Assembly (NCBI GenBank): GCA_029931885.1
Contig: JAOZRJ010000008.1
Span: 1 to 16,627 of the forward strand
Reading direction: 5' to 3'
Origin: Candidatus Omnitrophota bacterium
Lineage (GTDB): Bacteria > Omnitrophota > Koll11 > Zapsychrales > Aceulaceae
DNA: 16,627 bases
A program made the translations under genes and the position numbers. The first letter of the stretch is position 1. Each line of letters opens with the position of its first letter. This document shows, one piece after another, positions 1 to 16,627 of this stretch. The notes beneath the pieces are model-generated. The model ran no database searches, was not told the DNA's origin, and saw only the letters and a list, made by a program, of their open reading frames with translations.

Positions 1-413
1 GCGATAACCCAATCTTTTATATCCACCGGCTCATCAAATGAAGCCTGAATCTTATACATTCCTGTGTTAAGTGAAATTTTATCAGCAATATCTGAAACAA
101 CTCCTTTAAACTTCTTCTTTTCTGTATCAAAGAATACTTCTTGTCCTTTTTTTAGCTGACTTCGTAAGTCCTCAGAAACGTATCCTTCTAGAGTCTTATC
201 AAAAACTTTTATCATTGTTATTTTAATGTTGACTGGAACATTTTCTTTTTTAATTTCATATAAGACAACTGGCTTACCTTTTTCCTCCCATTCAGACATA
301 GAACTTAAAACCTTTTGATTTCTTTCGTTAAGCACAACATGTTGCTTCCAGATGATTAAAACAAAAAACACGAAAAAAAGAATAAAATATACCCAATTTA
401 TTTTCTTATTCAT
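1..413 (-). CDS. Periplasmic adaptor (membrane-fusion)-like protein, N-terminal part only
   Basis: The first 137 residues are visible; the gene runs off the left edge. It begins with a short basic stretch and one hydrophobic segment at about residues 7-22, as expected for an inner-membrane anchor with the rest in the periplasm. From about residue 52 comes a beta-rich stretch (VPVNIK, then LKKGQEVFF, then FKGVVSDI) that resembles the beta-barrel part of HlyD/AcrA-type adaptors. I see no lipoyl or long coiled-coil hairpin between the anchor and this part, so it may be a reduced or rearranged adaptor. Its ATG lies inside the end of the TolC-like gene (8 bp overlap, 406-413), so the two are co-translated and probably form one export complex. 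The family call rests on weak similarity plus context; a generic membrane-anchored periplasmic protein remains possible. Confidence 0.6.
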   Translation of the reverse strand, partial: MNKKINWVYFILFFVFFVLIIWKQHVVLNERNQKVLSSMSEWEEKGKPVVLYEIKKENVPVNIKITMIKVFDKTLEGYVSEDLRSQLKKGQEVFFDTEKKKFKGVVSDIADKISLNTGMYKIQASFDEPVDIKDWVI

Positions 414-1731
414 TTTTACTTTCTATTAAGGTAAGTCTTTCTATCTTAGCCAATATAATACTTAAATTAAACAAAGTTGTCTCTTTGTTCATTTTTGCAT
501 TTGTAAGCTGTAGCTCTGCATCATTTAAATCTGTAATAGATACTTGCCCAGAAGAAAAAAGCTCCTGGCTATATTCAAAAGATTCTTTAGCCCAACGCAC
601 AGCTTCTTCATTCGCTTTTAAAGTTTTCTTATATTCTTCGTATTCATTAATAGATTTATCCAATAACAACAAATAATCTTTACAGCCTTTACTGAAGTTA
701 AGCTCTGCATCATTCTTATCAATTCTAGCCTGAGAAAGTGCTTCTCTGGTTAAACCTCCAAGCCAGATAGGAATGCTTATTTTAAAACCAGCTACACCAT
801 AATCATCTAGATTGTCTCCTCCAACATAATAGTCATTGCCTGTTCCCTTATGATTCCAAGTAGCAAAAGTAGAAACTTCCGGCAAAGTCTCAGCCCTTTT
901 TGATTTAACAAGAAATGTCTTTTCTTTAATTTCTTCAGCTAATGCCTTTATTGCAGGCTGATTATTATATAAAGAAAATGCAAGATATTCTCTATCAAAA
1001 CTAGGATATTCTTCAGTAAATCCTTCTATCAGTTCAACCGTGCTGCCTTTTTCTGCATCTACGATAACTTTTAGGCTTTCCAAAGCCGAGACAAAATCAG
1101 CTCGGGCATTACTAACTACAGGGATTCTAGAAGCAATATCGGATGAAGTTTTAATATTATCATACTTAGAAGCTCGCCCTTTAGAAGTCCTACCTGTTAA
1201 TATTTTCTTGTTTTCTTTTGCATTCTCATAAGATTCCTGCGCTACCTCAAGAATTCTTTTAGCTAAATAAGTATTATAATAAGCAAGCTTTGCATTATAA
1301 ATTATTTCCTGAGAAGTTTCTTCTTTGCTAAAACGGCTGGCTTCAACTGCTTTTTTAGCAGCTTTTATAGCGTTAGAAATCTTACCGAAAGTAAAAAGCG
1401 TCTGCGAAATTGATGCCCCAGCATTAATATAATAATCTTTTGTAGTTGTTGCTACTGCCTGCGGATATTTAAAATTATTTGACCACTCAACATCCCCAGT
1501 AATCTGAGGAAGAGCAAAAGATTGTTCTTCTTTCTGTTTTGATGTCGCCCTTAAAATCTCGTTCCCACTTATTTTAAAATCCTCGCTGGATTTCAAAGCC
1601 ATATCTATTGCTCTATTTATGTTTAATTTTAACTTCTTATCTATTTTTTCTTGAGCAAGAACTGAAGTAATCAAACAAACGAAAAAAATAAGAATAAAAA
1701 CTGATAAACTTTGTATTTTATTTACCTTCAT
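406..1731 (-). CDS. TolC-like outer membrane efflux protein
   Basis: This 441-residue protein has a clear signal peptide (hydrophobic core at about residues 8-25, likely cleavage after SVLA). The mature part is mostly long amphipathic helices, with a beta-strand-like stretch near YYINAGASISQTLFTFGKIS and a second related half later (DDYGVAGFKISIPIWLGG). This internal duplication of strand pairs and helical hairpins is the hallmark of outer-membrane efflux proteins (OEP/TolC), which trimerise into a channel through outer membrane and periplasm. The length is normal for the family. The ATG is preceded by AAGGTG five bases upstream. It lies 16 bp after the ATP-grasp gene and overlaps the adaptor-like gene, so it belongs to an export operon. 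The substrate cannot be read from the sequence; the two enzymes upstream are the only hint. Confidence 0.9.
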   Translation of the reverse strand: MKVNKIQSLSVFILIFFVCLITSVLAQEKIDKKLKLNINRAIDMALKSSEDFKISGNEILRATSKQKEEQSFALPQITGDVEWSNNFKYPQAVATTTKDYYINAGASISQTLFTFGKISNAIKAAKKAVEASRFSKEETSQEIIYNAKLAYYNTYLAKRILEVAQESYENAKENKKILTGRTSKGRASKYDNIKTSSDIASRIPVVSNARADFVSALESLKVIVDAEKGSTVELIEGFTEEYPSFDREYLAFSLYNNQPAIKALAEEIKEKTFLVKSKRAETLPEVSTFATWNHKGTGNDYYVGGDNLDDYGVAGFKISIPIWLGGLTREALSQARIDKNDAELNFSKGCKDYLLLLDKSINEYEEYKKTLKANEEAVRWAKESFEYSQELFSSGQVSITDLNDAELQLTNAKMNKETTLFNLSIILAKIERLTLIESKNE

Positions 1732-1747
1732 ATAAACACCTTGTTAT

Positions 1748-2779
1748 CTATAGCCGACGTATAATGTCCCGAGCTAAATTGTATGTTCTTCTTTTTGGGA
1801 ATCCGGGAAACATATTTACATCAATTACATAAGCATTCTTTAAATCTTTATCTAAAATTACATCAATTCCGGCAAAATTCAAGTCGAGGACACGCATCGT
1901 TTTTCGTACTTGTTTCGTGATTTTTTCAACTATTTGATAAGGTAGCTTTTTTAAAATAGCTGGGCTACCCTTCCCGCCTTGAGAAATATTTGTCGTGACT
2001 GAATGTATGCTATTTTTTCTAGGATAAATGTAAAGAACTTTATCAAAACAAGCATAAACCCTAAGATCTATCTTATTATCCCCAATATTGCATGGAGATA
2101 TGGCTTCTTCCATTATAAAATCGCCATGAATAAGACTCCTTAAAAACTTTACATCCCCGGTAATATCCTTAAATTTCCAACCATAATCAGAGCAACGTTG
2201 AATAATTTTCCCATTCTTAACTTTAAAATTTGTCTGCCATCTATCATTCTCTAAATACGTTATCCCTTTGCCCATAGAGCCGCATCGTGGCTTAATATAT
2301 ATCTTTTTACCCTTCAAAAGCAAATTCATAATACTTTTAGTACTTTTCACTTTAATTTCTGGCGGCACTCTTACTCCTGCTTTTGAAAGCTTCCTCATGA
2401 CTGTAACTTTATCTCTATAGGCAGAAGTCAATTTCGGATCATTTACAAATTCTATTTCCTTGTCTGAAAGCAACTCCTTTACTCTACGTGAAACATCATT
2501 GCAAAACTTTGCAAATTTCTTTAAAAACAAAAGATTTCCATATAGCCCTTTATATTTCTTGCATTCAATATATTTATCCCAGTATTCAAAAGGAAAAAAA
2601 GTCACTACAGTAACTTTTTTACTAGATATATCCAAATGACACCTCTTAAAAATCGTTTTATAATCTATCGCAACATAATCAAACCCTTGTTTTCGAATAA
2701 ACCTTTTCTCTTTATCAAATTTCTTAAAAGAGTCAAAGTCAGCTAAATCACCTATAGCTAATATTGTTATTTTTCTCAT
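1748..2779 (-). CDS. ATP-grasp ligase-like protein (YheC/RimK/tubulin-tyrosine-ligase style)
   Basis: This 343-residue protein has the ATP-grasp fold pattern. The N-terminal third (1-115) is Rossmann-like with no clear signature. The ATP-binding part carries YIKPRCGSMGKG at about 161-172, the phosphate-loop lysine and glycine-rich strand. DLRVY follows at about 238, and the Mg-binding end reads IDVNMFPGFP at about 319-328. ATP-grasp enzymes usually join a carboxylate to an amine through an acyl phosphate, for example adding amino acids to a peptide or acid. Which substrates are used here is not visible. It starts 10 bp after the stop of the lysine-ketoglutarate-reductase-like gene, with no convincing Shine-Dalgarno, suggesting translational coupling. 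No signal peptide or membrane segment is seen, so it should act in the cytoplasm. Its neighbours suggest it works with an amino-acid dehydrogenase and an efflux pair. Confidence 0.8.
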   Translation of the reverse strand: MRKITILAIGDLADFDSFKKFDKEKRFIRKQGFDYVAIDYKTIFKRCHLDISSKKVTVVTFFPFEYWDKYIECKKYKGLYGNLLFLKKFAKFCNDVSRRVKELLSDKEIEFVNDPKLTSAYRDKVTVMRKLSKAGVRVPPEIKVKSTKSIMNLLLKGKKIYIKPRCGSMGKGITYLENDRWQTNFKVKNGKIIQRCSDYGWKFKDITGDVKFLRSLIHGDFIMEEAISPCNIGDNKIDLRVYACFDKVLYIYPRKNSIHSVTTNISQGGKGSPAILKKLPYQIVEKITKQVRKTMRVLDLNFAGIDVILDKDLKNAYVIDVNMFPGFPKRRTYNLARDIIRRL

Positions 2780-2789
2780 ATTTAATTAT

Positions 2790-4106
2790 TTATTGCAGAT
2801 ACTGTCTTAAATACTGATAATTTTCAGTAAGCTCCCCAGCTTGCGTCACAACAGCCCCTCTCAATTCTCCCGGGATAGCAATATGATCTGTTATATTCAC
2901 CACTCCATGAGCAGCTATCTGATATACATATTCGCGAATAAGCTTACTAAAATTTTCAGAAGAATCTGCCGGCAATTCCGTAGGCAAATTATCAATAGCA
3001 AGTATCGTTATGCCCTTATCTTTATAACCCTCTTTGTATGTATCCGTCAAAGGATCATAGGTATATACCGGTTTCTTTTGAGTAGTGGTTTTATAAGTCA
3101 GTTCTACAGAACCGCCGATATCACAGGAAATATCAGATATGAATTTTAAACGTGAATCTTTTTTAGGAAACATCTTTCTAATCATTTTTTTCGTCACCAA
3201 TCTTGGATAATGATGATCCCAATAGCTTGCATTTAAAAGCATATTTAACTTTGGAAGATGCTTACTCATATTGGACTCAAAACTTTCAGGACTTTTAAGA
3301 TATTCTTCAAAATAAAATTTCTTTTTATTCTTTGCTCGTAATTTTTCTTCTCTGTAAAAAACGATAGTATATATTTTCTTATTATCGTGACTTTTCCGCT
3401 TTATAAAACTTTTCATATCCTGAGGGTGCACTTCCTCTGAATCCCAAAATCCCAACATCTCTTGTATGCCGCTACTAACATTTCCTCTCCCAATTACTCC
3501 TATGACAAAGGGTGTAAGTTTTTTACTTAACCCTTTTTGCCGTATCAATTCCCCAACTTTAATCATATCTTTTTTTAAATGATCTATCGATCTATATTTC
3601 CAGCTAGGTTTTAGCGCAAGAAAAGGAGTGTCAATTCCCAGATGCTTCATCTTCTTTCCATAATAGCTAAGACTATCAACAAAACCGCATATTCCTGCAT
3701 ATCTTCCAAAAAAAACCAATCTTTTTCCTCTTGAATCCCTTATCTTCTCATGATCTACTAAAGTAACCCTTTTTTCTATCATCTCTTTAAGCAAAGAAAT
3801 ATTATCTTTCTGCCCTTTGACAGTATGAGAAAATATCATATAAATCTTATCACTAATAACATTTGATGGAGCAGGGGCCTTTACGCCTACAAGAAAAGAA
3901 GCCTTTTGTACACGCCTTACTATTCTTGCCCCAGCCTTAGAATACTCTTTATCTCTAAAAACACGAATCGGGCTGGATTCAACCTCAACCTCAATCCCCA
4001 TGTCTATAAGCCATCTGACATCTACTGGAGTAATTGGGGATCTTTTTTCTCTTTTATTCTCTTCTTTAAGAATCCCTACAATTAATTTCTTTCTTTCAAT
4101 TCTCAT
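2790..4106 (-). CDS. Stand-alone lysine-ketoglutarate reductase (LKR)-like protein of the alanine dehydrogenase/saccharopine dehydrogenase family
   Basis: The 438 residues match the N-terminal (LKR) half of the bifunctional eukaryotic enzyme AASS/LKR-SDH along their whole length. IVGILKEENKREKRSPITP near the start is the AlaDH/PNT N-terminal pattern. IFSHTVKGQ at 91-99 and LVDHEKIRDSRGKR at 116-129 parallel the AASS segments around its SHTIKAQ motif. VIGRGNVSSG at 204-213 is the nucleotide-binding turn. ISDISCDIGGSVELT and DNLPTELP (372-379) follow, then the end motif GAVVTQAGELTENYQYL. The saccharopine dehydrogenase half is absent. The known family reaction joins lysine and 2-oxoglutarate to saccharopine with NADPH, but a different amino/keto acid pair is possible here. 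The ATG has TGAGGT five bases upstream. It is first in a run with an ATP-grasp enzyme and an efflux pair. The family call is firm; the substrate is inferred. Confidence 0.82.
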   Translation of the reverse strand: MRIERKKLIVGILKEENKREKRSPITPVDVRWLIDMGIEVEVESSPIRVFRDKEYSKAGARIVRRVQKASFLVGVKAPAPSNVISDKIYMIFSHTVKGQKDNISLLKEMIEKRVTLVDHEKIRDSRGKRLVFFGRYAGICGFVDSLSYYGKKMKHLGIDTPFLALKPSWKYRSIDHLKKDMIKVGELIRQKGLSKKLTPFVIGVIGRGNVSSGIQEMLGFWDSEEVHPQDMKSFIKRKSHDNKKIYTIVFYREEKLRAKNKKKFYFEEYLKSPESFESNMSKHLPKLNMLLNASYWDHHYPRLVTKKMIRKMFPKKDSRLKFISDISCDIGGSVELTYKTTTQKKPVYTYDPLTDTYKEGYKDKGITILAIDNLPTELPADSSENFSKLIREYVYQIAAHGVVNITDHIAIPGELRGAVVTQAGELTENYQYLRQYLQ

Positions 4107-4899: not shown

Positions 4900-5685
4900 A
4901 TGGCTTCAGAAATCTTAGAGATTCAAGATCTTACAAAGAAATTCTCCCCCTCTTGTTCCCTTAAAAGAGTTTTTTCCACACTTTTCTATCCACTTACACC
5001 CGTGGTTGTTCTTGATCAAATCAGTGTTTCGCTTCAAAAAGGTAAGATTCTAGGAATATTGGGTCCAAACGGCGCCGGGAAGACAACGCTTCTTAAAATT
5101 ATTGCAACGCTTATACTTCCAGATAATGGCTCTGTTAAAGTCGCAAATTATCATACAGAAAAAGATGATAAGAAGATTAGAGCTCTTGTTGGCCTTGTTT
5201 ACGGGGATGAACGTAATTTTTATTGGCGACTAACTGGCCGCCAAAATTTAGAGTTCTTTGCTACACTTTACAACTTGTCTGAAAAGAAAGCAAAAGAAAG
5301 AATTAATTACCTACTTAATCTTTTTGACATTAATTACGCAGACAAGCGCTTTGACATCTATTCAACTGGCATGAAACGAAAGTTTAATCTTATACGCGCT
5401 CTTTTATCAGATCCGCAGCTTTTGCTCTTAGACGAACCAACCAAAAGCTTAGATTACCGCTCAAAAAAAGAGCTTCACTCCTTTATCCAGGATCACATTA
5501 AAGAAAAAACAACAGCTGTTTTGGCCACACATAATTTTGAAGAAGCGCAAAGCCTTTGCGATGAATTTCTCATCCTCAATAAAGGTCTAGCCTGCGCACA
5601 TGGCACGCTTGATGAGATCAAAACACAAACTAAAACTAATAATTTAGAGAACGCTTATCTAGCGTTAACACAACATAATGAATAA
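4900..5685 (+). CDS. ABC-2 type transporter, ATP-binding subunit
   Basis: This 261-residue protein is a complete ABC ATPase: Walker A GPNGAGKTT (55-63), signature STGMK (155-159, a variant of LSGGQ common in ABC-2 exporters), Walker B LLLLDEPT (174-181) and the H-loop histidine in ATHNF (H211). The segment YGDERNFYWRLTGRQNLEFF (101-120) between Walker A and the signature is typical of DrrA/NodI-like exporters. It would power export of a lipid-linked sugar, antibiotic, peptide or similar substrate through the permease encoded next; the two genes overlap by 8 bp. No Shine-Dalgarno is visible before the ATG, and the upstream bases are nearly pure A/T, so the transcript may be leaderless or the start may rely on an unstructured AT-rich region. 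It is convergent with the peptide-maturation operon and may export its product, which is inference. Confidence 0.92.
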   Translation: MASEILEIQDLTKKFSPSCSLKRVFSTLFYPLTPVVVLDQISVSLQKGKILGILGPNGAGKTTLLKIIATLILPDNGSVKVANYHTEKDDKKIRALVGLVYGDERNFYWRLTGRQNLEFFATLYNLSEKKAKERINYLLNLFDINYADKRFDIYSTGMKRKFNLIRALLSDPQLLLLDEPTKSLDYRSKKELHSFIQDHIKEKTTAVLATHNFEEAQSLCDEFLILNKGLACAHGTLDEIKTQTKTNNLENAYLALTQHNE

Positions 5686-6481
5686 AATTCTCGCCTTTAT
5701 TAAAAAAGATTTTCAGATTGAAGCAAGCTACAAACTAGCTTTCCTGTTTAATTTCTTTGCCGTTTTTTCTTCTATCTTCATCTACTATTTCATCGGAGAG
5801 CTTTTCGGACATCAAGCTGTTGATCATCTAAAAAATTTTGGCGTAAACTATTTCTCCTATGTTCTTCTAAGCATGACATTCTTTAATTATATAGGTGTTG
5901 GGTTAGGATCTTTTTCTGACCAAATCCGTCGAGAACAAATTCAAGGAACCCTTGAATCTCTACTGATGACCCCCACAAAAATTACCACCCTTCTTCTAAG
6001 TATGTCTTTGTGGAGTTTTATTTTTGCGACATTCAATGCAGCAATATACATTCTCTGCGGAATCTTTTTATTTAAAATTGATTTTTCTCAAATCAACATC
6101 TTATCCTGTTGTTTTATTCTTATACTAACAATTATCACCTTCAGCTGTTTAGGAATTCTCTCTGCTTGCTTTGTTCTAATCTTTAAACGTGGAAATCCAA
6201 TTGGGTGGGTTATCAATTCTCTGGAAGGTATTTTAGGAGGCGTATATTATCCAATCACAGTGATGCCGATATTCTTACAAACACTTGCAAAATTCATCCC
6301 TATCACTTATGCCATTCGTGCTATACAGCTTGCTGTTTATCAAGGCTACACCATCGTCCAGTTAAAACAGGAAATTCTAATCCTTTTAAGCTTTGCTATT
6401 ATTTTACTACCAATAAGCATCAAAGCATTCGCTTCTGCTCTAAAAAAAGCCCGATTACGCGGACATCTTGCACAGCATTAA
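5678..6481 (+). CDS. ABC-2 type transporter, permease subunit
   Basis: This 267-residue membrane protein has about six hydrophobic segments (near residues 20-41, 60-80, 105-130, 140-168, 180-200 and 230-250). A cytoplasmic segment QIRREQIQGTLESLLMTP between the second and third is characteristic of ABC-2 permeases, and VYYPITVMPIFLQTLAKFIP towards the C-terminus is also typical of the family. It forms the transmembrane path for the ATPase encoded upstream, whose stop codon it overlaps by 8 bp. Its stop codon overlaps that of the convergent nucleotidyltransferase gene by 3 bp, so there is no separate terminator between the two operons. The substrate cannot be deduced from the sequence. Confidence 0.9.
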   Translation: MNKILAFIKKDFQIEASYKLAFLFNFFAVFSSIFIYYFIGELFGHQAVDHLKNFGVNYFSYVLLSMTFFNYIGVGLGSFSDQIRREQIQGTLESLLMTPTKITTLLLSMSLWSFIFATFNAAIYILCGIFLFKIDFSQINILSCCFILILTIITFSCLGILSACFVLIFKRGNPIGWVINSLEGILGGVYYPITVMPIFLQTLAKFIPITYAIRAIQLAVYQGYTIVQLKQEILILLSFAIILLPISIKAFASALKKARLRGHLAQH

Positions 6482-7470
6482 TTATTTCTTAGAATTGACA
6501 ATAACACAGAAAAGAATCTTTTCAAATAGAAAAAATAAAGGGAATATTCTTTTTTCTCAAGATACATACGCTTAAGCTGAGAAATTGGTGGGAAAAAACT
6601 TAAGAACACAAAACAAATCTTTTTCGAAATAGTATCTGCCATTTCAATTAACAAAGGAAAAACCAAATTATTAGATCCTGTTTTATTTTGTGTGATTCGT
6701 GCCAAAAACTTTGTTCCAGCCTTTGAAACCTTAAACGGCTTAACATTATCGATCACGCCTACAGGAACAAGCTCCTTTGACCAGTAACAATTCAGAAGAC
6801 AAAAACTATAATATAACGCAAGTCCTACGCCCCATTTTTGCGCAGTACTAACAAGACTAGTCCAATTTATTTTTTCGCGATTACTCTCAACAACCTTTTT
6901 AATATCATAAAAAAAACTTTCTTTTTCAAAAGAATGTTTAAATGCATGTAACATTAAGAAAATAACTTCATATTCCAAACACATTTTATAAAATGACTCC
7001 AAACCGTCACCTGAAGGAATAGCTTCATTCCAAATATCCTTCATATCAATTTGATCCATTACCATTAAAAGGGGCAAGCTACTATTCAATATATGCCAAT
7101 GTAAATGAATAAAGAATGGAATTTTCCCCGACTTAGTCAGAGCCAAAGAATTGAACGAAAGGCTTCCGGGACTTTTGACATCAAAAGGATATCGCGGCTC
7201 CTGAAACCCAAGACCAACAAGCATCTCAACAGCCAAAGCAACATCTTTTTCCTTAACAAGAACATCAATATCCCCCATATAGCGATTACCAAAATCAGCA
7301 TTGGGTTCCATTAAAAACGCAATACCTTTAAGCGGCATTAATGCAACTTGCTTTTCATGAAAAATATGTGCAACTTTTAGAAACTCATCGAGAAGAAAAA
7401 CATTGCGGGCCGTTAATTGAAGACGGCGATCCTGTGAAGATAGCGTTGAATATGCAATATTAATTGACAT
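6478..7470 (-). CDS. NTP_transf_5 family putative nucleotidyltransferase
   Basis: The 330-residue protein carries the pattern of the NTP_transf_5 family (uncharacterised nucleotidyltransferases, PF14907): PLKGIAF at 46-52, then GNRYMGDIDVLV at 61-72, where the two aspartates of GDIDV are the expected metal ligands, followed by a long helical C-terminal part. Members often sit beside PqqD-like, HprK-related and S26 peptidase genes, as here. They may add a nucleotide to a protein, peptide or small molecule, but no reaction is established that I know of. It begins one base after the S26 protease stop and has no strong ribosome binding site of its own, so it is translationally coupled and last in the operon. 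The C-terminus has a hydrophobic, basic stretch rather than a clear transmembrane helix. The family call is good; function unknown. Confidence 0.78.
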   Translation of the reverse strand: MSINIAYSTLSSQDRRLQLTARNVFLLDEFLKVAHIFHEKQVALMPLKGIAFLMEPNADFGNRYMGDIDVLVKEKDVALAVEMLVGLGFQEPRYPFDVKSPGSLSFNSLALTKSGKIPFFIHLHWHILNSSLPLLMVMDQIDMKDIWNEAIPSGDGLESFYKMCLEYEVIFLMLHAFKHSFEKESFFYDIKKVVESNREKINWTSLVSTAQKWGVGLALYYSFCLLNCYWSKELVPVGVIDNVKPFKVSKAGTKFLARITQNKTGSNNLVFPLLIEMADTISKKICFVFLSFFPPISQLKRMYLEKKEYSLYFFYLKRFFSVLLSILRNN

Positions 7471-7471
7471 G

Positions 7472-7921
7472 TTAACTTACAAAAGCATGTTTTAGTAATC
7501 GTAGACGCTCATACACAATCCATGTTAAATAAGAGAAGATACCAATAAGAAAATTAAAAAAACTTTGCTGCTTGATCATTTTTCCCTTTCGCTCATAAGT
7601 AGCAACGCACCCTAAAATATTTTCTGCTGATATAGGCTGATCTGCGCCCCAGACAGCATCTCCCTTGGTAACCACTTGTTTCAATAAAAAACTCTTTTTT
7701 AAAAGCCTATGAACACAGAAGTCCCCTGCTTGAAAAAAAACAAGAACATCTCCAAATCTTAAATCTTCAAACTTCTTTCTTTCAATAATAACAAAATCAT
7801 CAACTTTTAAAAAAGGACTCATGCTGTCTGAAACAATTTTCAAGCGACACTCTTGTCCTTGTTTCAACTGATCTAAAACCACATCAGCTATCGCAAAACT
7901 ATATTTATCACCTGACAACAT
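7472..7921 (-). CDS. S26 family (signal-peptidase-like) serine protease
   Basis: This 149-residue protein has the S26 signature SDSMSPFL (31-38), with S33 the likely nucleophile. VHRLL (70-74) provides H71 where bacterial LepB has a general-base lysine, so it resembles the ER/SipW (S26B) type with a Ser-His pair. KGDAVWGAD (86-94) is the conserved later box, with D88 a candidate third residue. Unlike normal signal peptidases it has no N-terminal membrane anchor. A single hydrophobic segment lies near the C-terminus (about 121-138), with a basic end. It lies 6 bp after the small Cys-rich peptide and 1 bp before the nucleotidyltransferase gene. Inference: it removes the leader of the matured peptide or processes an exported partner. 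It is shorter than LepB but normal for the small S26 proteins of peptide-maturation cassettes. Confidence 0.8.
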   Translation of the reverse strand: MLSGDKYSFAIADVVLDQLKQGQECRLKIVSDSMSPFLKVDDFVIIERKKFEDLRFGDVLVFFQAGDFCVHRLLKKSFLLKQVVTKGDAVWGADQPISAENILGCVATYERKGKMIKQQSFFNFLIGIFSYLTWIVYERLRLLKHAFVS

Positions 7922-7927
7922 AGCGTC

Positions 7928-8080
7928 TTACCGTGAACGTTTTGAACAAGTCATCTTCATGCAACAAGATCCTGACGGCCCTACCCAATTACTATCACAA
8001 ACAACTGCTAAAGTCTCAATTTGCTTTTCATAAACAATCTTCGGTTTGGTATAAGATTTTTTCTTATTTGCGTCCATCAT
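7928..8080 (-). CDS. Short Cys-containing peptide, candidate RiPP precursor of the radical SAM enzyme
   Basis: A 50-residue ORF (49 if the second of two adjacent ATGs is used) fills the gap between the radical SAM and S26 genes and overlaps the radical SAM end by 17 bp. GAGG at 8087-8090, six bases before the first ATG, can serve as ribosome binding site. The N-terminal half is a charged leader: KKKSYTKPKIVYEKQIETLA at residues 6-25. After it comes a short tail with cysteines at 28, 39, 40 and 45, glycine and serine (GPSGS at 34-38), tryptophan 32, and a basic end KRSR. A leader of the type KPxIxYExxIETLA followed by a small Cys-rich core is how radical-SAM-modified peptides are built. The PqqD-like protein encoded nearby would bind the leader. 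Cysteines or their neighbours are the likely modification sites (thioether, for instance), but this is inference. Confidence 0.75.
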   Translation of the reverse strand: MMDANKKKSYTKPKIVYEKQIETLAVVCDSNWVGPSGSCCMKMTCSKRSR

Positions 8081-9122
8081 TTCCTTCCTCTCTTTGCTCT
8101 ATAATCCCCTGACGAACCTTAGCCAATGTACACTCGTTAGGAGAAGCTCCATAAAGATCTCCCGTCTCCATTAAAGCAAGACCTGGACAACGATCACAAA
8201 AATATGCATACGAACAATCCCGGCACTCAGGCAAATCATCAAATTCCATTTTTTGAATTTCCTCAAAGAATGGCGAGCTTAATATTTCCTTAATCGGAAC
8301 TTCTTTAAGATTACCGCATGGCTTACGTAATGTAACACAAGGATACACTTCTCCTTCCGGCGAAACATATATGGCATTAATCCCTGCAGAACATAACGGC
8401 TTATAATCATGAACCCCACCTTTAATAATATCCTGCGTTACCGACGGCGTTCTTTCTAAAAATGCATGAAGATCTTCTTGGCTCAAACGGTGTTCTAATA
8501 CTTTCTTGTCACCATCAAGTTGAGGAATTACCGTCAACGAATAAATAAACGCAGAACGAATACTTTTTGCAAATGCATCTAAAGCGTTGAATTCATTGAT
8601 GTTTTCCTTCATCAATGTACACTTCACCACAGTGGTGACATTGCGTTCTTTCAAAAGATCAAAAGCCCTACGTGTTTTTGCATAAGAACCAGAAACCCCT
8701 GTAATGTCCTCATGAACCTTAGGATCCATACCATAAAGACTCATCTCAACAGATAATGGTTTAAGCGCAGCAATCTTATCTGCAAGCTTCTCGTCAATCA
8801 AAGTCCCATTCGTAAAAAAACGAATAGCAAACTGCTTTTTACGAGCATAACGTGCGATATCTAAAAAATCTTCACGCACAAAAATTTCACCACCTGTAAA
8901 CGTAATAAACAAGCATCCTAAATCTGCTAATTGATCCAATGCTGCAAATGCCTGATCTGTCGTTATTTCATCAACCTGTTCAGGTCGATGTTGGTAACAA
9001 TGACTACAAGATAAATTACAACGATGTGTAATCTCCCAATCTAATTTTAATGGAATACGCTTATCCAGAGTTTTCTGAATCAATGCATCGTAGCAATCTA
9101 GCTCATGACAAAGGGGACTCAT
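8064..9122 (-). CDS. Radical SAM/SPASM peptide maturase-like enzyme
   Basis: The 352 residues contain the radical SAM cluster motif RCNLSCSHC (C35, C39, C42), the glycine-rich SAM-binding strand FTGGE (75-79), and a C-terminal SPASM region with cysteines at 244, 262, 269, 300, 303, 309, 312 and 331 for auxiliary iron-sulfur clusters. SPASM enzymes of this size modify ribosomal peptides or act in cofactor synthesis (PqqE, AlbA, anSME types). The start codon directly follows the PqqD stop (TAA then ATG), and the stop lies inside the small Cys peptide gene, so PqqD-like chaperone, enzyme and candidate substrate are translated together. Inference: it installs a cross-link or epimer in the 50-residue peptide. 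A heme- or cofactor-type role cannot be excluded. Confidence 0.93.
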   Translation of the reverse strand: MSPLCHELDCYDALIQKTLDKRIPLKLDWEITHRCNLSCSHCYQHRPEQVDEITTDQAFAALDQLADLGCLFITFTGGEIFVREDFLDIARYARKKQFAIRFFTNGTLIDEKLADKIAALKPLSVEMSLYGMDPKVHEDITGVSGSYAKTRRAFDLLKERNVTTVVKCTLMKENINEFNALDAFAKSIRSAFIYSLTVIPQLDGDKKVLEHRLSQEDLHAFLERTPSVTQDIIKGGVHDYKPLCSAGINAIYVSPEGEVYPCVTLRKPCGNLKEVPIKEILSSPFFEEIQKMEFDDLPECRDCSYAYFCDRCPGLALMETGDLYGASPNECTLAKVRQGIIEQREEGNDGRK

Positions 9123-9395
9123 TTAAAATGTCACCATTCCTTTTTCTTGAAGCTCTTCAAAAAATATAACAACATCTCTTTGCGCCTGATCTAAAGAAAC
9201 ATCAAATTCCTGAGTAATAATCTCGGATATATCGTTAATCGTATGTTTTCCGTCAATCAACGGCCAAACACACGAACCTACATCATTTAGCATGCGCACC
9301 AAACCTTCCTGTGGTGTTACAATCACCGCCTCATGATCAATCATACGCGATGCCATATTCTCAGATATTCGAGGGCACGCAGTTAACATAATCAT
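9123..9395 (-). CDS. PqqD-like peptide chaperone
   Basis: Starting at 9395, after GGAGG with a seven-base spacer, the protein has 90 residues. A longer reading from 9440 is open but lacks this signal. The pattern is that of PqqD: PRISE near the start, a strand with HEAVIVTPQEGLVRMLNDVG, the helix CVWPLIDG, then TINDISEIITQEFDV and a final helix ending EELQEKGMV. PqqD proteins and fused PqqD-like domains (RRE) bind the leader of a precursor peptide and hand it to a radical SAM enzyme. The gene overlaps the HprK-like gene by 35 bp upstream, and its stop touches the radical SAM start. It may belong to the subgroup described as HPr-rel-A system PqqD, known from operons with HprK-related kinase A. 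That family assignment is from memory and context. Confidence 0.85.
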   Translation of the reverse strand: MIMLTACPRISENMASRMIDHEAVIVTPQEGLVRMLNDVGSCVWPLIDGKHTINDISEIITQEFDVSLDQAQRDVVIFFEELQEKGMVTF

Positions 9396-10173
9396 CAATA
9401 CACCTCCAAAAAGAATTATCCGGACGAAAATGTAATGCAAAACATGGAATGTCTCGCGCTAAATTCTCTGTTACATGAAAAACTTTATCCACAGCAAATA
9501 ACGAATCCCATGCGCGAGAAATGGTCAACAACTCAAAACTTGCCCGCGCATGAGAAAGCTCTTCTAAAAAAACTTCATTATCTTGTACCAACTTAAATAA
9601 CCCAGCAATCGGATGTGGACCAGTAGCCTCATTCCAATCTTCTTTTCCATAAGGCGTTCCATAGGCCCCAAACTGTCCTTGATCGCATTTAATAGCCACC
9701 AGCTCATCACTTAAAATAAAATGTTCAGAAGAGTTTCTGACTACTGTTGTCTTACCAATTCCCGACGGACCAAAAAAGATATAGGCCTTACCATCTTTTA
9801 CAATACCTGCTGAATGCAGCATAAGACCTCCGCTATGAAAAATTATAGCAGAATAAAAGCTGCGCAAAAAACTCGCCAAAGATTCAAATGGCCAATCCGA
9901 TGAAGTACTAATAACACCCTGTTTTGTGGATAAATCAACATGACCTATAAATTCTTCACAACAGATATGAAAACATCCATCTGCAATAGAAGCTTCTGTC
10001 TGAACAACTGTATCGGATAATGAATCGCTTGCGATCTTAACTACTATAATATAGTCGCAAGGATTTTCTGTTACAAAAGACGAAAAAATCTTTCTGACTT
10101 GCTCTGTAATATTACAATCACAAATCAATCGCGTTGTAACCCCGGCTATTGTTACATGAATATTATTATTCAT
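9361..10173 (-). CDS. HprK-related kinase-like protein (HPr-rel-A system type)
   Basis: This 270-residue protein has the P-loop of the HPr kinase C-terminal family: FFGPSGIGKTTVV (133-145), preceded by GLMLHSAGIV (116-125) with the usual histidine, and followed by ILSDELVAI (153-161), the acidic strand. The later region with GTPYGKEDW (172-180) parallels the HprK substrate strand. The N-terminal 110 residues show only weak sandwich-like strands. HPr kinases phosphorylate a serine in HPr, but HprK-related proteins beside PqqD genes have no known substrate. The start codon overlaps the end of the C25 peptidase gene by 8 bp, so the two are translated from one message. It is shorter than real HprK (about 310 residues). 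Inference: it phosphorylates a peptide or protein of the cassette, or acts as an ATP-driven regulator. Confidence 0.75.
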   Translation of the reverse strand: MNNNIHVTIAGVTTRLICDCNITEQVRKIFSSFVTENPCDYIIVVKIASDSLSDTVVQTEASIADGCFHICCEEFIGHVDLSTKQGVISTSSDWPFESLASFLRSFYSAIIFHSGGLMLHSAGIVKDGKAYIFFGPSGIGKTTVVRNSSEHFILSDELVAIKCDQGQFGAYGTPYGKEDWNEATGPHPIAGLFKLVQDNEVFLEELSHARASFELLTISRAWDSLFAVDKVFHVTENLARDIPCFALHFRPDNSFWRCIDDYVNCVPSNI

Positions 10174-13100
10174 TTCTCAATTCAAGAGCCGGATCGCCTA
10201 AAAGATTAAAAGATTCAATGACATTGCGTCCACCGATACCAGCATTCTCAAAAACTTTTAGTTTAGCCTGAGCTGTAGATGGGCCAATAGTATAATTACC
10301 ATCCACAAAAATACTTTCAAATAATCCTTGATTTAAAAACTGCTGAATTCCAGGATAAGAAATGCCTCCTGGCGCTATTGTTGCGATAGCTCCACCGTTT
10401 GTGGCATAGAGAAGTTCTTCTGCAAAACAATTAAAAATCCCCGATGGAAAAACAAAATATCCACTACCACAAGTCATCATCGGAATAAATGAAAGCCTGT
10501 CAATATTTGTTAAAGATGAAATGTCATCAATCTCAAAAATGTTTTCATGCGCCCACCGCACCACAGAGCTATGCCCAGCATAATTAGTGATAAGCGCTCC
10601 ATCATTTAATGCACCAATAATATCCATCTTGCAAGCTGCCGAACTAGTATAATCATCAAGATAAATTTTGTTCGACATAACATCCGGCGGTAGATAGTCA
10701 GTCAGACTCTCAGAAATATCCACAAAAATGCCATCTAGATTATCGGCAACTAATGTAACATCTTTTTCCCATCCCGCCGAAGACGCTGTTTCATAGCTAA
10801 TAATCTTGTTAACCATCTCTTGCGCCTGAGTAACATTATAAACAGGTAGACGGCCCACAAACATATCCGGCAAGATATCATCTTCACCATCGAGGCAGAC
10901 AAACCAATTATCCGATCCTGTTTCCCCAAAAGCAAGACTGTGCACCATATAAGTCGGAACATAATTCTTTACATCCCACAACTCTAGATCCTGATAGTCA
11001 TAGGTCCCATCTCCCACAAAAAGAACATAGGCGGGCTTAGGGTCTTGCCATTCGCTATACGCATACTGTAAAAACGTCTTGATAGCTTCAGGGCTAAATA
11101 TCCCACCATTAAATTCATCATAAATATCTTGAACTTTAACCGTCATAACGTTTAATCCTTGCGCTGTACGGTGTGCAGCTAAAGGCTGAACAGCAGAATA
11201 AAAATCTTCATGCGTGATAATAATGTAATCGGCTTGATTTTCAGAATTGAACAAATCAGAACCCTCATCTTGTACGACATCTAAAGGACTCTTAAAAGCT
11301 GATTCCTCTAAAACAAGATATTTTTTAGTATTTGCCCTTGAAAACTTATCATGAAAAATAGCCTTGTAAGTTGAACCCTCAGGAACAACATCAACAAGCT
11401 CAATGCGTTTTGGTTTCTTGTGGTTCTTGACAATATAGGCATAAATGTCCTCAGTGTCAAAACCAGAAACTTCATATGCAACTAAGCCCCCTTCTGATTC
11501 ATGAGAAAACTTAAGCTCATCGCTGTTTGCCACAAAGGCCCGAGGATATGACATCTCAAACCAATTAACCAAAATTGAATCAAACTCTACGCCCGTGTCT
11601 CCTGGTGCATCCAAAGTAATGATGTTTGTTCCATCAACAAGATACTCATGCAAAACATCAACGTTAAAGGTGTGATCTTCATTTCCGTACCAAAGCTGGT
11701 CAGAAACAAAATTTCCGTTAACCGAAACCACCACGTGATGATCTGTCTGTTCAAAACCATAAGAAACACCTTGCAAGCTTATCGTTAATATTGCATTTTG
11801 CACATCTGTGCTTAAGTCAGTTACCTCAATCGGAAAATCTAAGACTGTCGGTGCCCAGAGCATATCAAAATAAAACCAATGATCATCAACATGTCCAACG
11901 TCAGGGATGTCCATCCAATAAAGCTCATCAACCTCTTCATGAACCTTTGACATAAAGCTAGTAGGCACTACTCCCGCCTCATACATCCGCCGCGTTTTCA
12001 TCCGAAGACCCTCTTCTCCTTCAAATGTCAACCAATAAACATTTGTCGCACTATAACGTGAATCAAGTGCCTGACCATAAAACTCAATAAAATCTTGATA
12101 ATCAAAGACCCCATCATCTCCACCAATAACATCTATGCGGATTTCTTTGCCTTTATAATACATTTTTATCAAATCAGGATTTAAGGTGACAATATCAATA
12201 CCAGCGTCAATCAATTCCTGTGCGCTAATACGATGCATTCCTTCTTCTTGTACGCTAACTTTATAAGCCGAAGTCCTTGCCAGTTCAAACTGTTGAATCA
12301 TTTTTTCCTTAATCCTTCTTTCCCATCTTCTGGATTTGTAATAATTGCTGAAGGTTCCTTGAAACAATTCTTCAAAAGGATCTGACCCTCCTTGCGGCGG
12401 AACAACTTGAACTTCGACTCCATAATCGATGGTGACAATAACTTTTTTACAAAGCTTTAATTCACTGGTGACTGGATTAAATTGAACTGGATAAATTTTA
12501 AGTTTAGCAACATCTTGTCCACGCATTACCCCCACTGGCTCAACAACAGCTAATTCTCCGACATAAAAGCTATCCTGAAGATAAGCTTCTTCGTCTTTTA
12601 CAAAGCTTTCGCTGACCTCTAAATCAGAAAATCCACCAAGCCCATCTTTTTCAACTTCAAGCGCCGGCACAGGATATAAATTATACCCTAAGAAAACTTC
12701 CTCATCCTCGCTTGTGGCTGTTATAGTCATGTTATTATCAAAAGGAACATTTAAAAGCATACCCTTAACAGGAATTTGCGGCTTACCTTGCTCTTCAGTT
12801 TGTCCATGAGGATAAACAAGTGTAATTTTTTGATAATCCTCACCATCGAACATAATTGTCTCAGTCTCAAATGAATCTGTATTAAGCTCTAAAACCATTC
12901 CTGCATCTGTTGAGGAAAGGATTACAATCCCATCCGTTGATGGCGGCAGAGCAGAATTGTTTTGCGTTGGATCTGTATTCGCACCATATTCTTGTAAATT
13001 AGTAAAATTATCGTTGTCTAAATCAAGCTGTGCGTCTGAAGGATCACTTGCATCAAGCCCATAAAAGTTTTCCCAGTCATCGCTCATACCATCATTATCA

Positions 13101-14554
13101 GCATCTATTCCAGGATGCGATTCAACAGGACCATGAGGTGTTGCCCCTCCATTGTACTCAACATCTTCAAGCTTATAATAATATGTTACCCCGTCGATAA
13201 CATTAGTATCGACATATTCATAATCTTCTCCCATAACAGAATTTCCTAATCCAGGGATAAGAGTATTGTTGATCTTAGAGTACGGGCCATTAAGGTTTTC
13301 ACTTCGGTAAATATTGAATCCAGCATTCTCAATCTCGCTATCTGTGGTCCACTTGACTGCAACCTCGCCGCTGCGGCCAACAGCATCAAAGTTAACAAGA
13401 TCAACAATCGTAACCCCAGGAAGCTGCAAGACCTGCCACTCAATCCAACCCTCCTGACCAGTACGCACACGCTGAATCTGCAAATTTGTTGTTGTTGTTA
13501 ACAATGCCGTCGCAAAAGGCCTTGGATAAGCTCGCCCTGTCGCACTTCCATCACATGTATGACGTTCAAAAACAATTGTATTATTTAGTGTAACCGCAGG
13601 AGATAAAGTCTCATTATGCGTAGCCCAAGTCGTATCAGAGCTATAATCAACCTGACCCCTCTGAGCTACAGCATCCGCACCAAAATTAATCACATACCAT
13701 CGAATCGTATTCGTTGATGAATAATTATCATGCATATAAAAACTGATCTGTGTAGAACTGTCAATATTTCCTGCCATGCCAGAATATTCAATACCATTAG
13801 TGTCTGTTCGAAAATCATATAGCAAAATAGAGGCATCAGTATGGATAGTATCAATAGTTGCCGTTGCGCGGCTTCCTTCAGTATCTCCATTAACAACTGT
13901 CTCCCCAGTTTGAATACTTAAAATTTTGTTCATATCCCAATCAACCACAACCCAATTATAATTAACAGCTGCATTGGTTGAAGCTGCTCGTTGAATTCTT
14001 ACAGTCGTTGCAGCGTTAACATATGCTGTTAAATGTGATTCACTATAAGAGTATCGGTTTCCAGTATCCTGATCATTATCTGCTGTTACAAAAGCGATAC
14101 AATTTGCTGGTGTCACTGTCGCTCCAATCGAAGCACTGGTATCACCATTTCCCGTAGAAAAAGATCCACTGCCACGATAGGCCGTAAATTCATCATCCGT
14201 ACATTCAATGACCTGCCAACTTATCCAAGAGTCTTGTCCCGCGCCATCATAACGGTAAACACGAATCGTTGTTGTATTAAGAAGCTCCCCCCTTACCCAA
14301 TTCTCATCCTCATCAATATGTCTATTACCCTCTCCTGTGCCATAGCTAAAAAGCACAAATGCCTTATTAGTAGCGCTAACCGCTGTGATAGAAATATCCT
14401 GCTGAGCAGATGTGACCTGCGTACGGCCTTGTTGAATCTTGTAGGCCGCCTCAGCATTATTAGCGAAGAGTAAAATTCCGAGCACTATAAAGAGACCCAG
14501 ACAAATTGGCAATATTCTTAATAAAGATACTTGAGTCTTGTGTTTTGAAATCAT
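10166..14554 (-). CDS. Secreted multidomain C25 (gingipain-like) cysteine peptidase
   Basis: The 1462-residue protein has a signal peptide (hydrophobic core 12-31, cleavage likely after AEA at 36). Four related modules of about 80-90 residues follow, each ending in a W-rich strand (SWISWQVIEC at 118, YNWVVVDW at 206, IRWYVINF at 291, WIEWQVLQL at 378). Next come an FN3-like domain (about 381-475) and two calcium loops of the thrombospondin-3/EF type (DADNDGMSDDWE, DLDNDNFTNLQEY, 484-523). After a long central region the peptidase C25 domain begins near 1108. Catalytic residues should be H1328 in NYAGHSSV and C1362 in PMMTCGSG. It ends LLGDPALELRNE with no type IX C-terminal sorting domain. 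AAGGAGAG lies four bases before the ATG. It is first in the operon and overlaps the HprK-like gene by 8 bp. Confidence 0.9.
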   Translation of the reverse strand: MISKHKTQVSLLRILPICLGLFIVLGILLFANNAEAAYKIQQGRTQVTSAQQDISITAVSATNKAFVLFSYGTGEGNRHIDEDENWVRGELLNTTTIRVYRYDGAGQDSWISWQVIECTDDEFTAYRGSGSFSTGNGDTSASIGATVTPANCIAFVTADNDQDTGNRYSYSESHLTAYVNAATTVRIQRAASTNAAVNYNWVVVDWDMNKILSIQTGETVVNGDTEGSRATATIDTIHTDASILLYDFRTDTNGIEYSGMAGNIDSSTQISFYMHDNYSSTNTIRWYVINFGADAVAQRGQVDYSSDTTWATHNETLSPAVTLNNTIVFERHTCDGSATGRAYPRPFATALLTTTTNLQIQRVRTGQEGWIEWQVLQLPGVTIVDLVNFDAVGRSGEVAVKWTTDSEIENAGFNIYRSENLNGPYSKINNTLIPGLGNSVMGEDYEYVDTNVIDGVTYYYKLEDVEYNGGATPHGPVESHPGIDADNDGMSDDWENFYGLDASDPSDAQLDLDNDNFTNLQEYGANTDPTQNNSALPPSTDGIVILSSTDAGMVLELNTDSFETETIMFDGEDYQKITLVYPHGQTEEQGKPQIPVKGMLLNVPFDNNMTITATSEDEEVFLGYNLYPVPALEVEKDGLGGFSDLEVSESFVKDEEAYLQDSFYVGELAVVEPVGVMRGQDVAKLKIYPVQFNPVTSELKLCKKVIVTIDYGVEVQVVPPQGGSDPFEELFQGTFSNYYKSRRWERRIKEKMIQQFELARTSAYKVSVQEEGMHRISAQELIDAGIDIVTLNPDLIKMYYKGKEIRIDVIGGDDGVFDYQDFIEFYGQALDSRYSATNVYWLTFEGEEGLRMKTRRMYEAGVVPTSFMSKVHEEVDELYWMDIPDVGHVDDHWFYFDMLWAPTVLDFPIEVTDLSTDVQNAILTISLQGVSYGFEQTDHHVVVSVNGNFVSDQLWYGNEDHTFNVDVLHEYLVDGTNIITLDAPGDTGVEFDSILVNWFEMSYPRAFVANSDELKFSHESEGGLVAYEVSGFDTEDIYAYIVKNHKKPKRIELVDVVPEGSTYKAIFHDKFSRANTKKYLVLEESAFKSPLDVVQDEGSDLFNSENQADYIIITHEDFYSAVQPLAAHRTAQGLNVMTVKVQDIYDEFNGGIFSPEAIKTFLQYAYSEWQDPKPAYVLFVGDGTYDYQDLELWDVKNYVPTYMVHSLAFGETGSDNWFVCLDGEDDILPDMFVGRLPVYNVTQAQEMVNKIISYETASSAGWEKDVTLVADNLDGIFVDISESLTDYLPPDVMSNKIYLDDYTSSAACKMDIIGALNDGALITNYAGHSSVVRWAHENIFEIDDISSLTNIDRLSFIPMMTCGSGYFVFPSGIFNCFAEELLYATNGGAIATIAPGGISYPGIQQFLNQGLFESIFVDGNYTIGPSTAQAKLKVFENAGIGGRNVIESFNLLGDPALELRNE

Positions 14555-15384: not shown

Positions 15385-16627
<1,243 letters not shown>

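Follow-up and report, generated by a model that had tools for sequence, protein, structure and literature searches.

The window (the whole 16.6-kb stretch of DNA analysed here) contains a short minus-strand ORF lying between a radical SAM gene and a signal peptidase gene. This ORF (7928-8080), translated as MMDANKKKSYTKPKIVYEKQIETLAVVCDSNWVGPSGSCCMKMTCSKRSR, shares 17 bp with the radical SAM ORF (8064-9122) and ends 6 bp before the signal peptidase ORF (7472-7921) begins; tandem ATGs starting at 8080 and 8077 immediately follow the purine-rich GAGGAAGGAA. The peptide has cysteines at positions 28, 39, 40 and 45 and a KRSR end. A preliminary description of this DNA had reported an intact ORF with the same overlap, gap, ribosome binding site, cysteines and end, and our coordinates, GAGGAAGGAA and translation agree with it. 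On the minus strand the genes run in the order C25 peptidase, kinase, PqqD, radical SAM, peptide, signal peptidase and NTP_transf_5; that description had overlooked the HprK-like kinase, the NTP transferase and the ABC exporter. The features are as follows.

7928..8080, minus strand: precursor peptide ORF, 50 aa; ATG start, relatives at the same place, pN far below pS
8081..8090, minus strand: Shine-Dalgarno-like, purine-rich GAGGAAGGAA, read directly from the sequence
Within the precursor, minus strand: YxxP at Y10-P13 and IETLA at 21-25 in the leader; C28, C39, C40 and C45 in the core that follows
8042..8053, minus strand: codons 10-13, YxxP-type RRE-recognition motif YTKP (alignment A3)
7997..7999, minus strand: first cysteine codon of the core (codon 28), Cys throughout the 35 rows of A3
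7931..7936, minus strand: codons of the C-terminal pair Ser49-Arg50, which in P0002 and L001 is Ser-Ser and in L087 is Ser-Thr
8064..9122, minus strand: radical SAM/SPASM enzyme, 352 aa (PF04055 1e-25, PF13186 6.7e-12)
9123..9440, minus strand: PqqD-like discrete RRE protein (PF05402 7.5e-17)
9361..10173, minus strand: PEPCK-fold, HprK-like kinase, 270 aa (weak NCBIfam matches and a PEPCK-type P-loop fold)
7472..7921, minus strand: archaeal-type signal peptidase I, LppS-like (TIGR02228 54.8 bits, cut-off 51.85)
6478..7470, minus strand: NTP_transf_5 nucleotidyltransferase (PF14907 2.8e-28)
4900..6481, plus strand: ABC exporter, with ATPase at 4900-5685 (PF00005) and ABC-2 permease at 5678-6481 (PF01061)
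10166..14554, minus strand: C25 (gingipain/PorU-like) peptidase (PF01364 6e-97)
15385-16590: enolase-like ORF

Apart from the window peptide itself, a search of ~5.8 billion protein sequences found a single relative, P0002 (E 1e-16), which has the same cysteines and ends in KRSS. Loci were fetched from species genomes with the radical SAM alignment (33 rows), and the best 80 of at least 573, together with the window, gave 81 sources whose 28,842 stop-ended ORF tails were scanned with a precursor profile. The profile made 37 matches in these tails down to E 2.2e-4, with the next at 0.4 (in the orthologue at L001 an upstream start lengthens the frame, and the stop-ended tail recovers the peptide). 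Among these same 81 sources, a precursor was recognised in 36 of the 43 that carry PqqD, each with a radical SAM match, and in none of the 38 that lack it. The seven PqqD-bearing loci in which no precursor was recognised (L005, L007, L009, L016, L017, L031 and L063) include five with a kinase match, which counts against the pathway proposed below. Relatives beside PqqD/radical SAM genes share the leader and first cysteine with the window peptide, and the window-type orthologues (P0002, L001 and L087) have in common a C...CC...C-x-KRS core. None of the relatives scanned matched a known family (NCBIfam, 10 relatives at E <= 10 and 4 more at 0.001; Pfam, 2 relatives). The whole arrangement, from C25 peptidase through kinase, PqqD, radical SAM, peptide and signal peptidase to NTP_transf_5, plus the ABC pair, recurs in L001 and L087/L134. 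Titles of precursor loci name Omnitrophota, Lentisphaerae, Elusimicrobia, Acidobacteria, Aminicenantes, Deltaproteobacteria, Myxococcales, Chloroflexota, Verrucomicrobia, Planctomycetota and Nitrospinae, and in the phylum of L001 a precursor match at E <= 0.01 occurs in 62 of 384 genomes, the weakest possibly by chance.

The reading frame is conserved at the amino acid level. Between the window and L001, pS is 1.08 and pN 0.24, with different codons at 19 of 30 identical residues; the corresponding values for L087 are 0.89, 0.20 and 20 of 35, and the more distant L104, L002 and L003 give pN of 0.30-0.47 and pS of 0.85-0.92. Synonymous sites are thus saturated while amino acids stay, and the 50-residue ORF is a real gene under purifying selection. 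The preliminary description had taken the peptide to be the substrate of the PqqD/radical SAM pair and had proposed a search beside related pairs and a codon-substitution test as checks; similar small ORFs do adjoin related pairs and the frame is under selection, so that its reading of the peptide as substrate is now well supported by inference.

Conservation within the peptide is concentrated in a leader motif and in the cysteines. Of the 35 rows of alignment A3, 33 have YxxP and the other two FxxP and WxxP, giving [Y/F/W]xxP in 35/35, though the YxxP count is biased by the use of a P-containing pattern in first collecting some of the rows. The YxxP motif is characterised, in the accessible text of two studies, as an RRE recognition motif of lasso and LPP (Linear Polyphosphorylated Peptides) leaders (PMC12710340, PMC13381572). 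Pro13 and Cys28 are invariant in A3 and Tyr10 and Cys39 nearly so. Counting from the first cysteine onward, 20 rows have three cysteines, ten have two and five have four; the adjacent C39-C40 pair is present in the window, P0002, L001 and L087, and cysteines are the most conserved core residues. The KRSR end had been singled out as unusual, but KRS is common to the orthologues (KRSS, KRSS and KRST) and the window's final Arg is the exception.

The radical SAM enzyme carries the cluster motif CNLSCSHC at residue 35, and its profile (A1) recovered as solved relatives SkfB (3e-28), PqqE (8e-17) and 5wgg (4e-16), the last of which we take to be CteB. SkfB and CteB form thioethers, and thioether bonds are our guess, from these sequence relationships, at the likeliest radical SAM chemistry here. 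A substantial minority possibility is that the enzyme instead performs another reaction (a C-C or C-O cross-link, epimerisation or oxidation) and that the cysteines become disulfides or metal ligands. Its 25 listed NCBIfam radical SAM models (of 83 matched) span varied chemistries and all score far below their cut-offs, and PqqE is a C-C cyclase, both of which favour such an outcome; the conservation of Cys above all other core residues, and the presence of sactipeptide/ranthipeptide enzymes (SkfB and 5wgg) among the top solved relatives, argue against it. Two or more radical SAM frames surround the same kind of precursor in L038, L044, L053, L093, L097 and L101. The true start of the adjoining PqqD-like protein is probably an internal ATG near 9395.

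Several neighbouring genes could act on or export the peptide. In the signal peptidase, S33, H71 and D88 are readable as a catalytic triad, and this protein is the probable leader peptidase. The NTP_transf_5 protein has GDID at 66, with D67 and D69 invariant across 10 rows. Signal peptidase and NTP_transf_5 matches fall in one frame in L002 (4219-5895), L003 (2703-4292), L010 (3889-5970), L014 (12078-13721), L022 (5165-6871) and L070 (12161-13798), which suggests fused proteins with linked action. The ABC exporter is convergent with the operon, an arrangement repeated in L001 and L134. The C25 peptidase ORF overlaps the kinase start by 8 bp, probably encodes a secreted protein (judging from a signal-like N-terminus) and has the PorU sortase as its best NCBIfam match (314.8 bits vs a cut-off of 420). 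It recurs in 10 of the 81 sources (best 80 of at least 573 loci and the window), namely, besides the window, L001, L021, L024, L030, L032, L035, L046, L070 and L078, as well as in L134, L136 and L137 among 15 fetched pieces, and could be a processing enzyme or transpeptidase. Elsewhere in the window, consecutive minus-strand genes (406-4106) encode an outer-membrane efflux protein, a YheC/D-like ATP-grasp protein and an AlaDh/PNT-like dehydrogenase.

The putative kinase has H120, the P-loop GPSGIGKTT (135-143) and D156, and its NCBIfam matches (TIGR04249 2e-8, TIGR04352 2e-5) are both far below curated cut-offs. A second acidic residue is Glu in the window, and across its relatives is Glu in 19, Asp in 18 and Arg in one (n = 38). 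The low scores and this Glu count against the pathway proposed below. Foldseek and VIA-align both placed PEPCK entries on top, with no HprK among the 50 rows listed of each; HprK shares the PEPCK-type P-loop fold. Comparison of the kinase profile with PDB sequences gave mainly short P-loop matches, chiefly to ABC proteins (60 listed of 186).

In kinase-bearing sources the precursor usually ends in serine. A C-terminal Ser was found in 27 of 34 such sources (33 loci and the window, from the best 80 of at least 573) vs 14 of 237 pathway-enzyme ORFs (Fisher p 1e-20). This total counts L034 as kinase-less, its supposed kinase match (5e-4) being the same ORF as its ABC match, and omits a second peptide at L027 (E 2.2e-4), just below the cut. 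A leader-only model, blind to the C-terminus though trained on the same set, again gave 27/34, and with it two later sets, partly overlapping each other and the first, gave 33/39 and 29/32. The seven kinase-bearing sources without a C-terminal Ser count against the proposed pathway; they end in Arg (the window and L023), Phe (L003), Pro (L020), Gln (L021), Cys (L028) and Asp (L040), and 11 of 41 database relatives likewise lack it. Kinase-less comparison loci had a C-terminal Ser in 0 of 3 peptides, too few (from 2 loci) to weigh, and the A3 profile had no match in two Bacillota genomes meant as a kinase-less control. One subgroup (L023 3662-3814, P0144, P0150, P0153, P0157 and P0159) has a leader of the approximate form ...INRFF[F/L]GGC and, in place of the C-terminal Ser, invariably closes with ...[R/K]CR; L023 adjoins a kinase match.

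Two published systems offer different precedents for where such a kinase acts. In paeninodin-type precursors the C-terminal Ser is the site at which HprK-like kinases act, and PsmN, of the pseudomycoidin pathway, adds hexoses to the phosphorylated Ser, according to the available text of PMC9266682. In LPP biosynthesis, as far as the available text of PMC13381572 describes it, the target of LppK is an internal core residue, Ser3 of AQSNWK, and not the C-terminus. By analogy with LPP the window kinase could act on internal Ser30 (CDSNW), the C-terminal Ser of relatives then serving NTP_transf_5 or export recognition. We consider this possible but unlikely: Ser or Thr two residues past the first Cys is kept across the window-type clade and occurs in the window, P0002, L001, L002, L003, L087, L104, L111 and L112, and the window peptide itself has no C-terminal Ser, yet no more than 9 of the 35 family rows have Ser or Thr there, a Ser at the C-terminus is much more frequent, and LppK failed on S3T (reported in the same text of PMC13381572) whereas L001, L111 and L112 carry Thr.

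Alone among the orthologues, the window peptide has Arg as its last residue, behind Ser49, and this too counts against the proposed pathway. Because Arg follows the last Ser, the window peptide may be phosphorylated at Ser49 once Arg50 has been removed, at Ser30 as LPP Ser3 would suggest, or not at all. It is improbable, in our judgement, that the window precursor is a drifting or non-phosphorylatable variant whose last Ser is now Arg and whose pathway is limited to the radical SAM step. Orthologues end in SS, SS and ST and the window alone in SR, as drift would have it, but the kinase retains its P-loop and the conserved H and D; a carboxypeptidase or the C25 protease could, speculatively, expose Ser49, and the final Arg, known from one read-out, is possibly a sequencing error. 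The lack of any NCBIfam or Pfam match for the window peptide in library scans would suit a chance reading frame or a non-RiPP small protein, an explanation that can be set aside given P0002, the relatives at the same place, the matches in the phylum of L001, the selection on the frame and the PqqD association across the 81 sources.

Precursors are most numerous in a 1.8-Mb genome, G257 (loci L138-L140, L146 and L148-L186), where a profile built from 10 of its own precursors made 105 matches, two of them with an internal stop. Profiles matched the kinase once and radical SAM proteins twice in this genome, and one of the radical SAM genes forms a same-strand run with the PqqD and kinase genes. 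From the fetched pieces, a leader-only model extracted 104 distinct precursors of one leader type, with a mean pairwise identity of 0.36 (2,000 sampled pairs). A C-terminal Ser is present in 101, and the remaining three (30-40 aa) appear truncated. Three cysteines were counted in 81 precursors, four in 19, two in 3 and one in 1. Conservation reaches 0.98-0.99 in three Cys columns and elsewhere in the core rises above 0.5 at few positions: a GG-x-Y that follows the first Cys, a KG and the final Pro-Ser. The cysteines and final Ser are therefore among the few sites held fixed by selection, as two separate tailoring enzymes would require. An ATG start was found in 93 of the 104, but a Shine-Dalgarno-like 4-mer upstream in only 34, which counts against the proposed pathway. 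Two further genomes carry several precursors: G211 (L107, L141 and L147) has 17 precursor matches, with 17 of 65 candidates scored, and G020 (L098, L143 and L145) has 12 precursor, 12 radical SAM and 4 kinase matches.

The closest published counterpart is the LPP cluster lppAKBSDN of Paenibacillus alginolyticus, described in 2026, in which, according to the accessible text, LppB presents the precursor through an RRE, LppK phosphorylates it and LppS (catalytic S29/H68/D93) removes the leader (PMC13381572). The window shares with it a discrete RRE (PF05402), a YxxP leader (YTKP at residue 10), an archaeal-type signal peptidase I (TIGR02228), an NTP transferase (PF14907 in the window, possibly of the LppN kind), an exporter and an HprK-like kinase, the last recognised by weak below-cut-off profile matches and its PEPCK-type P-loop fold; in both, leaders are conserved and cores variable. 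In function, these window proteins (RRE, kinase, signal peptidase, NTP transferase and exporter) correspond to nearly all of the published LPP core set. The preliminary description called the RiPP undescribed; that combination is already published, and what the window adds is the radical SAM/SPASM enzyme, a term ('radical SAM') absent from the main text of PMC13381572.

The window family differs from LPPs in other respects, as the accessible text presents them. Its core is cysteine-rich, and its commonest conserved Ser is C-terminal. The LPP exporter is MsbA-like, and the window's is split into an ATPase and an ABC-2 permease. Of the LPP motif YxxPxVLxHQxIxFETxxS, the window has YxxP and I-ET (two residues closer to the Pro than in the LPP cleavage region) and lacks H-Q and F; the phosphorylated Ser3 of LPP follows FET, and the window peptide has no Ser three residues past ET. 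LPPs are called restricted to Bacillota (PMC13381572), and no title of a kinase-bearing precursor locus (from the best 80 of at least 573) names Bacillota, some titles naming no phylum. We do not file the window cluster as LPP, because its transporter is of another type and its leader departs from the full motif, including where the phosphosite lies.

Other known systems match in part. Paeninodin/pseudomycoidin lasso clusters, per the available text of PMC9266682, likewise combine an HprK-like kinase acting on a C-terminal Ser with an accessory nucleotidyltransferase and a discrete RRE. A macrolactam synthetase and B2 cysteine protease were not found among 13 ORFs of the 16.6-kb window scanned against Pfam (a set without the enolase-like ORF and small ORFs), and radical SAM and signal peptidase genes are there instead. 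Sactipeptide/ranthipeptide clusters share the radical SAM/SPASM enzyme and RRE (PF04055, PF13186 and PF05402) and a Cys-containing core; in the window these share an operon with a kinase, NTP_transf_5 and signal peptidase, the listed curated maturase models score the enzyme below cut-off, and the thioether is only putative. The SynChlorMet cassette (ScmC, PqqD-related ScmD and radical SAM ScmE/F) has a similar kinase-like, PqqD-like and radical SAM layout, and was rejected on scores of 33.8, 47.1 and 103.3 bits vs curated cut-offs of 125 (ScmC), 100 (ScmD) and 400 (ScmE). In the open PMC literature (subscription papers lie outside it), we found no paper on SynChlorMet, on a radical SAM RiPP with C-terminal serine phosphorylation, on HprK with radical SAM and a precursor peptide, or joining radical SAM, PqqD and gingipain. 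As far as the accessible text goes, the sole match for HPr kinase, RiPP and radical SAM treats lasso clusters, and that for Omnitrophota, RiPP and radical SAM is a general mention. The word 'kinase' is absent from the main texts of PMC7470986, PMC8326336 and PMC12710340.

Taken as a whole, the ORF is probably a RiPP precursor gene whose product would mature through a radical-SAM/kinase pathway. What was observed comprises the gene and its conservation, the cluster with its enzyme families, and the cysteines and C-terminal Ser that the family conserves; the reactions themselves are inferred. The PqqD-like RRE would bind the YxxP leader and present the core, the radical SAM/SPASM enzyme would modify the cysteines, and the HprK-like kinase would phosphorylate a serine hydroxyl, usually the C-terminal one. 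NTP_transf_5 may further decorate the Ser phosphate, after which the archaeal-type signal peptidase would remove the leader and the ABC pump export the product. RRE presentation and leader removal are proposed on LPP precedent (available text of PMC13381572), and C-terminal Ser phosphorylation with later hexose addition on that of paeninodin and pseudomycoidin (available text of PMC9266682).

More tentatively, and with slightly less than even confidence, we suggest that such clusters form a separate RiPP class, widespread in bacteria, whose precursors are shared by a single radical SAM/SPASM enzyme and a single HprK-like kinase, three cysteines being cross-linked and the C-terminal Ser phosphorylated (then perhaps glycosylated or nucleotidylated), with a combinatorial library in some genomes, such as G257. 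If true, uncultured phyla distant from Bacillota have coupled the phosphate-tagging module of paeninodin and LPP to peptide modification by radical SAM enzymes. Cores in this family vary widely around fixed cysteines and a fixed last Ser, with up to ~100 per genome; the enzyme set would accordingly be an attractive, tolerant platform, and the purpose of the phosphate or sugar tag would become testable.
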